DNA from: Actinomycetes bacterium
Lineage (GTDB): Bacteria; Actinomycetota; Thermoleophilia; RBG-16-64-13
DNA length: 64,000 nucleotides
Direction: 5' to 3'
Assembly (NCBI GenBank): GCA_024637035.1
Contig: JAGXFW010000033.1
Coordinates: 1 to 64,000 of the forward strand
The notes beneath the pieces were generated by a model that saw nothing but the letters and a program-made list of their open reading frames with translations, was not told where the DNA came from and did not search any database. The position numbers and the translations under genes were made by a program. Positions 42,205 through 46,486 of this stretch are shown one piece after another; within the stretch, counting starts at the first letter, position 1, and each line of letters begins with the position of its first letter.

Positions 42205-43230
42205 TCAGTGGGGCAGAACCCGTGCGATCTCGGCAATGTGCTCCGGGTGGGAGATGAACACGAGGCGATCGACAACCTCTTCCCGCGGAGAAGGCCCCGT
42301 GTAGGGCTCGATAGTCCATTTCCCATTAACCAGGCTGAACAACCATGGCTCACCCGCGAACTTCACGATTCCCTTGCCGCGCACCACACGCTCGGGGAGT
42401 TCGCCGAGCCAGGCGCGCAGATGGTCCTGTGACTCCCAGGATCCTTCGACGACCCACGAGAGGAGGCGGTCGGGTGGTGTGACCTGGGCGGTCTCGTCGG
42501 TGAGGAGGTCGTCGATGTAGGACTCGAGCTCCCGCTCGCTCATCGCGGCCGGCGGCACCTTGTCCGCCTCCTCGCCTTCCTCAGAGTCTGCGTCGAGGCC
42601 GGACGAGCCGTCGCTTTCGGCCAATTCCCGCAGCCCGCCCTCACGGAAGAGCCCTTCGAAGGACACGTCCGCGTACACAGCCTCGTAGAAGCGAGGCTCG
42701 GGGTTCAACTCGCGCACGATCTCCTTGATGCGCTCGACCGTCTCCGGCTCAACCAGATCGACCTTGTTGATGATGAACACGTCTGAGGCAGCCAGCTGCT
42801 TCTCGATCGCGAGGAACGATTCGTACGTGTCGAGGAAGTTGGCGGCATCGACCAGGCAGAACTTGTCGCGCAGTCGGAAGGCGTCGCCGAAGATGGGAAG
42901 CTTGAGGTCGCGGCCGAGGTCGCTGGGATTGGCCACCCCCGTGGTCTCGATCAGCATGATGTCGGGACGCACGGTATGAGCGATCTCGTGAAGCGCTTTG
43001 ATGAAGTCGGTCTTCACGCAGGCGCAGAAGATGGAGCCCTTGCTGATCTCGATCATGTCGAGATCCTCGCCCTCGACGAGCGTGCCGTCGAGCCCCATCT
43101 CGCCGAACTCGTTCATGAGTATCAGGAATCGAAGGTCCTCCGGTACCACCTTCACCAGGCGGTTGAGGAACGTGGTCTTGCCCGAACCGAGGAACCCCGA
43201 GATCAGGTAGACATCGACCTCATGCGCCAT
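42205..43230 (-). CDS. CobW/HypB/UreG-type G3E GTPase (metallochaperone)
   Basis: This 341-residue protein has Walker A GFLGSGKTTFLNRL, NEFGEMGLDG, the Walker B-like LIETTGVANP and NKVDLVEPE of G3E GTPases. The CXCC metal motif of COG0523 proteins is modified to CAC in GSIFCACVKTDF. An acidic linker (DSEEGEEADK) leads to a CobW C-terminal domain. G3E proteins deliver Ni, Co or Zn to enzymes or cofactors. The ATG at 43230 has GAGGAG ten bases upstream and overlaps the stop of a CxxC peptide gene, so the two are coupled. Confidence 0.88.
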   Translation of the reverse strand: MAHEVDVYLISGFLGSGKTTFLNRLVKVVPEDLRFLILMNEFGEMGLDGTLVEGEDLDMIEISKGSIFCACVKTDFIKALHEIAHTVRPDIMLIETTGVANPSDLGRDLKLPIFGDAFRLRDKFCLVDAANFLDTYESFLAIEKQLAASDVFIINKVDLVEPETVERIKEIVRELNPEPRFYEAVYADVSFEGLFREGGLRELAESDGSSGLDADSEEGEEADKVPPAAMSERELESYIDDLLTDETAQVTPPDRLLSWVVEGSWESQDHLRAWLGELPERVVRGKGIVKFAGEPWLFSLVNGKWTIEPYTGPSPREEVVDRLVFISHPEHIAEIARVLPH

Positions 43231-43333
43231 CGCCGTCACACTCCTCGGCGCGCCCTGACCCGCTCATCGCCCGAACATCGGCGATGAGGTCGATGCACGT
43301 CTTGCACGCTGAGCCCGGAACCAGTGCCAACAT
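43220..43333 (-). CDS. 37-residue CxxC peptide coupled to the G3E GTPase
   Basis: The frame starts at an ATG (43333) with a perfect GGGAGGT sequence six bases upstream and runs 37 codons to a TGA that overlaps the GTPase start. The peptide has a CKTC motif (GSACKTCIDLIADVRAM), a short helix and a final Cys in AEECDGDGA. The strong ribosome site, the extended -10 TATGAT about 25 bases upstream (43365-43370), and the overlap with the next gene argue that it is translated. I know no family for it. A metal-binding partner of the GTPase is a reasonable guess. Confidence 0.6.
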   Translation of the reverse strand: MLALVPGSACKTCIDLIADVRAMSGSGRAEECDGDGA

Positions 43334-43943: not shown

Positions 43944-44384
43944 GTGGGGGAACTGTGCTGGGAGATCGTAGGAGACGGCGGTCATGGTGACCGTGGTTGC
44001 CGGTCGTGCCCCGCATACCTGACCGGCTCCGACTGTTGGGAAGTGAAAGGCACCCCCTGCTCGTGCAATCCGGCCATCTGCATCCTCATCGAATGCCCCG
44101 TCTACCTCGTGCATAAGGCTGAGATCGAGAGTCGCCTTGCCCACGAAGACCTCGAGACCATGCTGCGCGCAGTCGAGCGCGTCGCCTCGGGTCAGTGCTG
44201 GGAGATCGAGGAGTGCACCGAAGCGGTGAGGGGCACCTGCCCGGCTCACGCAGAAGGCGCCCATTGTTGGGAACTCTCCTCACCCTGCCCCTGCAGCGGC
44301 GAAGACGGGTTCAGCCGTTGTCTCGTCTGCCCTATCAGGGTCTTCCACCAGCGCAACGCTTCTTCGCCGATCCGCAGCAGCTGA
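43944..44384 (+). CDS. Cys-rich two-CW domain protein, duplicated module
   Basis: This 146-residue protein has 18 cysteines and two similar halves. Each half has a CWEI start, a CPA segment, a second CWE, a PC-x-C motif and a final CP: residues 5-52 (CWEIVGDG, CPAYLTGSDCWEV, PCSCNPAICILIECPVY) and residues 85-133 (CWEIEECTE, CPAHAEGAHCWEL, PCPCSGEDG, CLVCPIRV). The pattern fits the two-CW domain family of unknown function found in anaerobes. Metal or Fe-S binding is likely. It ends 52 bases before the ArsR gene. Confidence 0.75.
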   Translation: MGELCWEIVGDGGHGDRGCRSCPAYLTGSDCWEVKGTPCSCNPAICILIECPVYLVHKAEIESRLAHEDLETMLRAVERVASGQCWEIEECTEAVRGTCPAHAEGAHCWELSSPCPCSGEDGFSRCLVCPIRVFHQRNASSPIRSS

Positions 44385-44401: not shown

Positions 44402-44460
44402 TTGCGCACGCGGTATTCCTCGCGCATAATATATTCATGTATGTCGATACTTCCATACAT
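44402..44460 (+). promoter_or_regulatory. Promoter and operator of the arsR-selenoprotein operon
   Basis: TTGCGC (44402-44407) and TAATAT (44427-44432) are 19 bases apart and predict a start near 44438, almost at the ArsR ATG, so the mRNA may be leaderless. ATGTATG (44437-44443) and CATACAT (44454-44460) form an inverted repeat with a ten-base spacer over the start codon, a fitting ArsR autoregulation site. Confidence 0.6.
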
Positions 44461-44775
44461 AGCACCCGGACCGACGACCCGTCGGAGGCAATACACCTCG
44501 CGCGCCTCGGCCGGTTCTTCAAGGCTCTCAGCGAACCGACTCGGCTTCGGATAGCACTGGCACTCACCGAGGAATGTCGCCCCGTGAGTGACGTGGTGGC
44601 GGCCACCGGTCTTCCTCAGCCCCTCGTCTCTCACCATCTTCGCATCCTGCACGAGGCGGGCATCGCCAAGCCCGATCGACAGGGCAACCAGGTGTACTAC
44701 TGACTGCAACGCGCCGTGGTCCGGGAGGCCATCCGCGTAGCCGAGAAGGCCATCGAGTCGGGGACGGCGTCGTGA
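44437..44775 (+). CDS. ArsR-family regulator with an in-frame UGA near its end
   Basis: Residues 20-88 are a complete ArsR winged helix (ARLGRFFKALSEPTRLRIAL, then GLPQPLVSHHLRILHEAGI, DRQGNQVYY). A TGA follows as codon 89. The same frame continues for 23 codons (LQRAVVREAIRVAEKAIESG) that form a plausible C-terminal helix. It ends in a TGA overlapping the GTG of the next gene. A hairpin of six pairs (44716-44721/44727-44732) with loop CGGGA starts at +13 after the UGA. I annotate read-through as selenocysteine. The short form ending at 44703 is the alternative and would still hold the DNA-binding domain. Confidence 0.6.
44716..44732 (+). promoter_or_regulatory. Putative bacterial SECIS hairpin of arsR
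   Basis: GTGGTC pairs with GGCCAT (with G-U pairs) around CGGGA. The apical loop starts 19 bases after the UGA, within the usual window, and contains G residues. Confidence 0.45.
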
Positions 44776-46025
44776 GCGACGCACCGACGTCCGACGCGCC
44801 ACTCCACGAAGACGCCTCGGGAGGGCCGGCGCAGGGGGGCGCGGAGCCCGCAAACACACAGTCCTGCATCATCTGCGACAGCACGCTCGACTACCTGGAT
44901 TCGGCGGCCGCGCTCACCTGCACCGTCTGCGGGAGTGAGGGTCGGGGGCACGTCGTCTGCCCGCGGGGACACTACGTGTGCGAAGGCTGTCACGGAGCGA
45001 GCTTCATGGAGCGTCTCCCTGGTCTGCTCGACGCGGCCACCTCGTCCTCCCCGTTCGCGATCGCGGAGGACCTCATCGCCGAGACCGACCTCCCCATGCT
45101 CGGGTGCGAACACGCGCACGTGGCGGCGGGTGCCTTGATGCGGGCCCTGGAGAACGCCGGTGTGGCAGGAGTCACCGCCGCCCACAGGGCTGAAGTGCTG
45201 GAGAGGACGGCCCGCCAGGCGGTGAGCGCGTACTGCGGATTGAGTGGCGTGTGCGGGGTCGTGCCTGCCCTGGGAGCCTGCTACAGCGTGCTCGTGGGCG
45301 GTCAGTGCGGCAAAGGCCCGCAGACCAAGGCGGCCATGACCCTTGTCTCCCGCCTCGCGGCGGCCACGGCCGCCGAGGCACACCCGGGCTGCTGCAAAGC
45401 CTATGTGCGAGTCGGCCTCCGCGAAGCCACAGCCTTCCTGCAAGAGGAGTTGGACATCACCTTCGACGCGGCCGCGCCCGTGATCTGCGCCGACACGGAA
45501 CGCCACCCCCACGGGTGCCGAGGCGCGGAGTGCGCCTGGCACCCCGACCACGAGGAGACGCACATGAACGAACCCGATACGGCCGTGCCCACGGCCGGCG
45601 CGGCGTCGACTCTCGGCGGGACGGGCGGCACCGGACCCGCCGCAAAGGCGCGCTACGACGAGTTCTTCGAGCTCGCCTACGCCGACGGCGTCCTCGATCG
45701 CAAGACGAAGATCCTGGTGGCATTGGGGGCTTCACTGGCATCCGGCTGTGCTCCCTGAACTCAGTATTGCCTCTCGGTCGGGAGGCGACTCGGGGTGACG
45801 GACGAGGAGGTCGACGAGGTGCTCCACGCCGCGATGACCGTTGGAGCCACGCGCATGCAGGTGATGCTCTCGCAGGAGGTCGCGCAGCTCGCTCCGGCGG
45901 AGGGAACACCTTCCACGCCTTCTCCCGCCGCGACGGAAGACCCGCGCCCGAGCGTCGCGGCCGACCGAGCAGGGTCGCCCGGGTTCGCCGCCGCCGAGGT
46001 GGTCGAACAGGCGGGTGGTGGCTGA
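44772..46025 (+). CDS. DUF5714-AhpD (carboxymuconolactone decarboxylase-like) fusion selenoprotein
   Basis: The product has 417 residues if the TGA at 45756 (codon 329) is read as selenocysteine. Residues 30-270 form a Cys-rich DUF5714-type domain (CIICDSTLDYL, CTVCGSEGRGHVVCPRGHYV, CEGCHG, LGCEHAHVAAGALM). Residues 290-385 are AhpD/carboxymuconolactone-like (FELAYADGVLDRKTKILVAL). The redox motif reads SGCAP-U-TQYC, that is CxxU where relatives have CxxC. The frame goes on as LSVGRRLGVTDEEVDEVLHA, the normal AhpD continuation, which proves the TGA is internal. A SECIS-like hairpin follows. An ATG at 45564 with GAGGAG upstream could also start the AhpD part alone. Confidence 0.85.
45767..45788 (+). 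promoter_or_regulatory. Putative bacterial SECIS hairpin of the AhpD selenoprotein
   Basis: TTGCCTCTC pairs with GGGAGGCGA over nine positions (two G-U) around a GGTC loop. The loop starts 18 bases after the UGA. A GGUC-type apex resembles the well-known fdhF element. Confidence 0.75.
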
Positions 46026-46177: not shown

Positions 46178-46486
46178 ATGGACCAAGCAGACCAAGAAAG
46201 CCCGCACATCGACCTGATCTCCAAGGGTCCCTCGTGAGTGCTCTGCAATCTCGCCGTGAGCGCGATGGAAGACATACAGGAGGAGAGCCCAGGCCTGTTC
46301 ACGTTCTCGGTGGTTGATGCGTCCACCCGAGAGGGCGTGAAGTGCCTGCAAGAACTGCGACCGGAGGCCGGGCGTCAGATTCCCGTGCCCGGCGTGATGA
46401 TGAACGGAGCGATCATTTTCGACCGAATCCCCGACATGGAAGAGTTCGGGGAATGGCTCGAAGGGCAGACGACGCCCGGGGCCTGA
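46178..46486 (+). CDS. Thioredoxin/glutaredoxin-fold selenoprotein with UxxC motif
   Basis: The ATG at 46178 has AAAGGGG upstream. The frame meets a TGA at codon 20 and continues to 46486, giving 102 residues. The active site reads GPS-U-VLCN, a UxxC motif placed between the first strand (HIDLISKG) and the first helix (NLAVSAMEDIQEE). The second strand (FTFSVVDAS) and the cis-Pro region (IPVPGVMMNGAIIF) complete a thioredoxin fold. Without the Sec codon the fold would lack its first strand and active residue. An imperfect SECIS-like stem lies at 46248-46266. It is the third UGA gene in a row and probably acts with the AhpD-type partner. Confidence 0.8.
46248..46266 (+). promoter_or_regulatory. 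Putative bacterial SECIS hairpin of the thioredoxin-like selenoprotein
   Basis: ATC-T-CGC pairs with GCG-C-GAT with one mismatch around CGTGA. The loop starts 18 bases after the UGA. Confidence 0.5.

Follow-up and report, generated by a model that had tools for sequence, protein, structure and literature searches.

The window, that is, the whole stretch of 64,000 nucleotides analysed here (on contig C18 of the 34 in its genome), contains an ArsR/SmtB-type regulator gene on the forward strand (44437..44775) with an in-frame UGA at 44701..44703. The gene starts with the ATG at 44437, and 23 sense codons after the UGA lead to a TGA stop at 44773-44775, which would give a product of 112 residues with Sec at position 89 if the UGA is read through. 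The window protein scored 47.4 bits against PF01022 (cut-off 22) and 77 bits against the NCBIfam metalloregulator model NF033788 (cut-off 55), which places it in the ArsR/SmtB family. Its Cys47 is encoded by the TGT at 44575..44577 (forward strand). As a preliminary description of this DNA had pointed out, the extended frame overlaps the next start codon: the sequence GTGA at 44772..44775 joins the GTG start of the following gene (44772) with the extended stop. Two probable selenoproteins are encoded downstream on the same strand, namely a fusion of DUF5714 with a CMD/AhpD-like domain (44772..46025), which has a UGA at 45756-45758 within the motif GCAPUTQYC, and a thioredoxin-like protein (46178..46486), in which the UGA at 46235-46237 is the first residue of a UVLC motif. 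A GC-rich hairpin (GCCUCUC, loop GGUC, GGGAGGC) also follows the UGA at 45756 in the fusion gene.

The distribution of the UGA was examined in surveys of the window's phylum (396 genomes) and class (399 genomes), of another class (36 genomes), and of the phylum to which a Dormibacteraeota genome belongs (400 genomes), and by a pattern scan of an 84,980-species collection, which returned nine stretches, eight of them true ArsRs; the remaining match (L061, Saprospiraceae) was a chance match that is not an ArsR. The survey samples overlap and the scan pattern requires TGA followed by YT, so locus counts are not rates. The codon exactly homologous to UGA 44701-44703 is TGA in 12 intact loci from 11 genomes (the window genome, G006, G007, G009 with two loci, G016, G017, G325, G426, G449, G153, and G410), whose proteins are 40-82% identical to the window protein and which are spread over the phylum of the window plus the one Dormibacteraeota genome. 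The named records among them are Actinomycetota/Actinomycetes MAGs, Thermoleophilia bacterium FR_37, one unidentified bacterium, and Candidatus Dormibacteraeota S106_Bin_1. At the family level (18 genomes), seven loci in six genomes have a single internal TGA, always in the context VYY/VFY-TGA-Leu, and the other matches listed are different, stop-free ArsRs. Neither TAA nor TAG was found at the Sec89 codon in any of the 12 intact loci. The suggestion that the ArsR frame runs on through the UGA is thus borne out by a recurrence beyond chance, and the comparison of related genomes that had been proposed found TGA in 12/12 intact loci and a TAA or TAG end in none.

All 10 rows of alignment A5 share Cys47, Tyr88, the TGA, and Leu90, as do loci L091 and L092, while the codon for Leu90 varies by locus (CTG, CTC, CTT, or CTA). 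Those ArsRs without the TGA that were read in the family comparison continue through the Sec89 position; in nearly all of them the residue there is Arg, Ser, Asp, Glu, or Ala, and in none is it Cys. In a tree of 37 ArsRs, in which 24 of 29 control loci could be placed, 11 of the 12 Sec-containing rows fell into one group (support 82/77), and the second locus of G009 (L063) and the Cys-containing row described below had no resolved placement. One further copy, in G786 (L114), was left out of the 12-locus count: its codons 47 and 89 are both TGA, with a perfect hairpin after the latter and none after the former (4/6 pairs), its N-terminus is interrupted, and the methyltransferase gene downstream is cut down; judged from its sequence, it looks like a Sec-ArsR that has decayed. 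Among viral contigs, neither the Sec-ArsR pattern nor the protein query P0002 found a relative, and a search of plasmids returned a single weak ArsR, 54% identical across 56% of the query.

The presence of the UGA follows that of SelA. SelA was detected above its cut-off in all 11 TGA genomes, SelB in all nine of those tested, and tRNASec above its gathering score in all but one of the 11 (G007, a genome that is 78% complete). In family searches of the window genome, SelA scored 549 bits, SelB 320, and tRNASec 72.6 (gathering score 47). Of the 12 genomes tested, only G518, whose assembly is a single contig, gave no SelA match; its ArsR is a close relative (113 bits) that has no stop, keeps Cys47, and has TGC (Cys) at the Sec89 codon. 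Its tRNASec candidate of 49.4 bits is uninformative, as control genomes also score in this range. Several features commonly asked of a selenoprotein are present: the UGA is conserved together with its flanking residues, SelA, SelB, and tRNASec occur in the genome, and a Cys-containing homologue exists in a genome without a SelA match, albeit as one case only.

A SECIS-like hairpin (44716..44732, forward strand) begins 12 nucleotides after the UGA and consists of a 6-bp stem and a 5-nt loop (CGGGA), with 18 nucleotides between UGA and loop. When the first 45 nucleotides of ten loci were folded jointly with RNAalifold, this single helix was returned unprompted (columns 16-21 paired with 27-32 counted from the UGA); its loop is 5 nt long and has G in second position throughout. 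In the alignment, 96.7% of 60 cells are paired and both-sided changes occur at four of the six pairs; the covariation score of 0.489 was matched by 0/500 shuffles and 0/6 slid versions. All six pairs can form in ten of the 12 TGA loci and five in the other two. Controls came from 41 non-TGA ArsR loci, of which 11 were dropped by the motif rule and 30 could be placed at the codon; at the same position, six pairs formed in none of these 30 and five in one, the Cys form among them having 3/6. According to section 5 of PMC13188914, bacterial SECIS elements have stems of 4-16 bp, loops of 3-9 nt, a G in the first two loop positions, and a distance of 16-37 nt from the UGA. The geometry found here (a stem of 6 bp, or 5 in two loci, a loop of 5 nt, G second, and a spacing of 18 nt) lies within these ranges. 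The same source gives an energy limit of MFE <= -7.5 kcal/mol; the isolated stems range from -5.3 to -9.7 kcal/mol in the ten loci that were scored (the two loci with a broken pair being unscored), and the limit is reached in 4/12. Together with the homologous TGA in relatives and the SelA match, the compensatory changes in the hairpin support the earlier idea of Sec in a regulator, and decoding of UGA 44701-44703 as Sec is strongly supported by the comparative evidence.

The position of the neighbouring start codon is also instructive. DUF5714 directly follows arsR in six loci, and in five of them its start codon precedes the extended stop by exactly 1 nt, even though the extension is 72 nt long in the window, G006, and G007 and 120 nt in G016 and G017; in the sixth (first locus of G009), DUF5714 starts 7 nt after the extended stop. 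That the start codon remains tied to the extended stop despite differing extension lengths points to the latter as the real end of arsR. Against this, the tail is weakly constrained as protein in most pairs: of seven pairs compared, one was saturated after the UGA and the other six had dN/dS values of 0.07-1.30 there, compared with 0.01-0.16 before the UGA. The tail gave no clean coding signal; with about 20 codons that also carry the hairpin, the comparison has little power. Overall, comparison supports decoding of the UGA, most likely as Sec, with the full-length ArsR as the selected product.

A structure model of the window protein (mean pLDDT 86.4) predicts a short strand at residues 48-49, wing strands at 77-82 and 85-90, and a helix at 93-110, with CzrA, CadC, and SmtB-like regulators as the closest solved folds; it thus has the winged helix and C-terminal helix of an ArsR/SmtB protein, and the helix that the preliminary description had suspected after the UGA is present in the model. 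Sec89 is predicted to lie where the last wing strand ends, just before the C-terminal helix. In ArsR/SmtB proteins, the last helix forms the dimer interface, and an 88-residue product would be devoid of it, residues 93-110 being encoded wholly after the UGA. Gene callers that treat UGA as a stop end this ArsR at residue 88, without the C-terminal helix, an annotation that Sec at this position would correct. In the winged helix, the short strand (here 48-49) adjoins the last strand, and by this topology Cys47 and Sec89 may be neighbours in space.

Alternatives to Sec decoding have to account for the same observations. The preliminary description had named a simple nonsense mutation as its main alternative, to which an assembly error may be added. 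The decayed copy in G786 shows that such loci can indeed degenerate, but the recurrence of this TGA at 12 intact loci in separately assembled genomes rules out a chance mutation and refutes this explanation, which we regard as having almost no remaining probability. It is also very improbable that the UGA is a true stop, with the downstream frame as a leftover and the hairpin tuning termination or translation of the next gene: the loose codon-level selection on the tail would fit, whereas the exclusive use of TGA in 12 loci with never a TAA or TAG, the TGC in the relative without SelA, the compensatory hairpin, the 4-nt overlaps with the extended stop, and the fact that other ArsRs run past the Sec89 point would not. 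Insertion of another amino acid (Trp, Cys, or Arg) by a near-cognate or suppressor tRNA would agree with the sequence taken by itself, yet the occurrence of the UGA follows SelA, the hairpin agrees with the bacterial SECIS rules for spacing and loop, and Sec-type UGA motifs are found in the adjacent genes, which makes this reading equally improbable.

The genes that accompany the Sec-ArsR provide some hints on its role. In 11 stretches examined, two of them from the same contig, the UVLC gene was present in six loci and a Sec-type CMD motif in six. The second and third genes of the window resemble the MbdU, ArsM-AhpD, and HUIPC-Trx selenoprotein families of NCBIfam, below the respective cut-offs. 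Elsewhere, an MtaA/CmuA-like methyltransferase follows the Sec-ArsR (G153 and the second locus of G009), or a methyltransferase together with a DUF2284-type protein (G325, G426, and G449); the pair that was scanned, in G449, resembles MduS and DUF2284 selenoprotein fusions. A methyltransferase of the same kind lies near the Cys-ArsR of G518, and a rhodanese gene is divergent to the Sec-ArsR in the Dormibacteraeota genome. A further thioredoxin-like Sec candidate of the DF type, with its UGA in GFSURLF, was noticed near the Sec-ArsR of G449 and G426 (L100:6625-6930 and L101). The common theme of these neighbourhoods seems to be soft metal(loid), methyl, and sulfur/selenium chemistry; their content varies between clades, so that one ligand for all does not follow from it.

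Taken together, we consider the best explanation to be that the UGA is decoded as Sec and that Cys47 and Sec89 form a switch in an ArsR/SmtB-type repressor of a selenoprotein operon, with a probability of nearly 0.8. In the proposed mechanism, SelB, helped by the hairpin just downstream, would decode the UGA as Sec and give the full-length regulator, in which the invariant Cys47 would form a pair of reactive residues with Sec89. These two might be bridged or oxidised by a soft metal(loid) ion, an oxidant, or a reactive species of sulfur or selenium, which would move the C-terminal helix and release the DNA, and the co-oriented metal/methyl-handling and redox selenoproteins would then be induced. 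By way of the GTGA overlap, translation of the next gene would probably be coupled to successful Sec insertion. The regulator presumably acts as a repressor. The operon content, with domains known from selenoproteins that bind metals or are linked to arsenite methyltransferase, would suit a function in soft metal(loid) or redox chemistry. The earlier proposals that Sec89 may serve as a metalloid or selenium sensor and that operon induction may depend on selenium supply are inferences. The chances are about even for the broader proposition, in which the Sec-ArsRs are a repressor family with a Sec89-Cys47 sensing switch, each heading a selenoprotein operon, and the same UGA couples both repressor activity and operon translation to selenium supply.

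A different view of the regulator is that it would merely gauge selenium: at low selenium, translation would stop at 44701 and the 88-residue product could neither dimerise nor repress, while high selenium would give the full repressor, and Sec89 itself would not need to sense anything. Both the location of helix 93-110 wholly after the UGA and the tie between the next start and the extended stop agree with this view, but a Sec-demanding operon would then be derepressed just when selenium is short, and neither the invariance of Cys47 alongside Sec89 nor the Cys form in the SelA-less genome would be explained. We therefore consider it rather unlikely as the main function, and gauging of this kind is possible as a side effect of the Cys47-Sec89 switch. 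If the switch reading is correct, Sec in a repressor would mean that selenium chemistry is used for gene control, with a selenium-based sensor controlling a selenium-based pathway, and these regulators, being small, would lend themselves to experiments on why sensing employs Sec and not Cys.

The window ArsR shares its fold, helix-turn-helix, and C-terminal helix with CzrA (Z 13.8 against 4ggg_B, rmsd 1.7 over 93 residues), CadC (Z 13.6 against 1u2w_B, rmsd 2.5 over 100 residues), and SmtB, and differs from all three in that Sec closes its last wing strand and Cys47 stands alone. CadC binds its ligands through a CxC pair and CzrA through His/Asp residues of alpha5, neither of which corresponds to the conserved residues found here. 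The ArsR fold is also common to the dithiol persulfide sensors SqrR and BigR, which use a two-residue chalcogen switch of the kind proposed here, although their Cys positions differ from Cys47/Sec89; the BigR model gave 40 bits for the window protein (cut-off 155). The best specific model for the window protein is TsoR (NF045707), which is matched by all 10 members of A5, at scores below its cut-off of 115 bits (57 for the window and at best 87.3 across 12 genomes). TsoR, a metalloregulator of the ArsR type, takes its name from the Tso operon of three selenoproteins (the operon is described in PMC13188914, section 9), whose genes differ from those of the Sec-ArsR operons. The downstream genes are built from the same domains as the MbdU, MduS, ArsM-fusion, and HUIPC-Trx selenoproteins (Haft and Tolstoy 2025, cited in PMC13188914), but all remain below the cut-offs and represent other fusions, and the regulator lies outside those families.

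With few exceptions, the prokaryotic selenoproteins known so far are enzymes, transporters, or redox proteins. Among the 119 families in Table 1 of PMC13188914 (2026), there is one regulatory entry, a putative FmdB-type protein, whereas repressors of the helix-turn-helix kind, ArsR/SmtB included, are absent. Neither ArsR nor regulator appears as a term in the deep-Sep report (PMC12013277), and literature searches on Sec-containing regulators and selenoprotein operons, in a collection with few subscription papers, listed no Sec-containing ArsR. The nearest precedent found is a TetR-family regulator with an in-frame TAG, listed under pyrrolysine in a 2007 survey (PMC1914089).

Several other features of the locus may be mentioned. 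An inverted repeat, ATGTATG-N10-CATACAT, spans the start codon (44437..44460, forward strand) and could, speculatively, be a candidate autoregulatory operator; the operator search of the window found only this weak repeat, and no perfect repeat was found in the relatives. Just upstream of arsR, a Cys- and Trp-rich ORF of 146 residues (43944-44384) without a match in Pfam or NCBIfam is 91% identical in G006 and 56% in G007. On the reverse strand, a gene for a CobW-type GTPase with an IFCACV motif (42205-43239) has conserved counterparts close to the locus in G006 and G007, and CobW-related selenoproteins are known (PMC13188914, Table 1).
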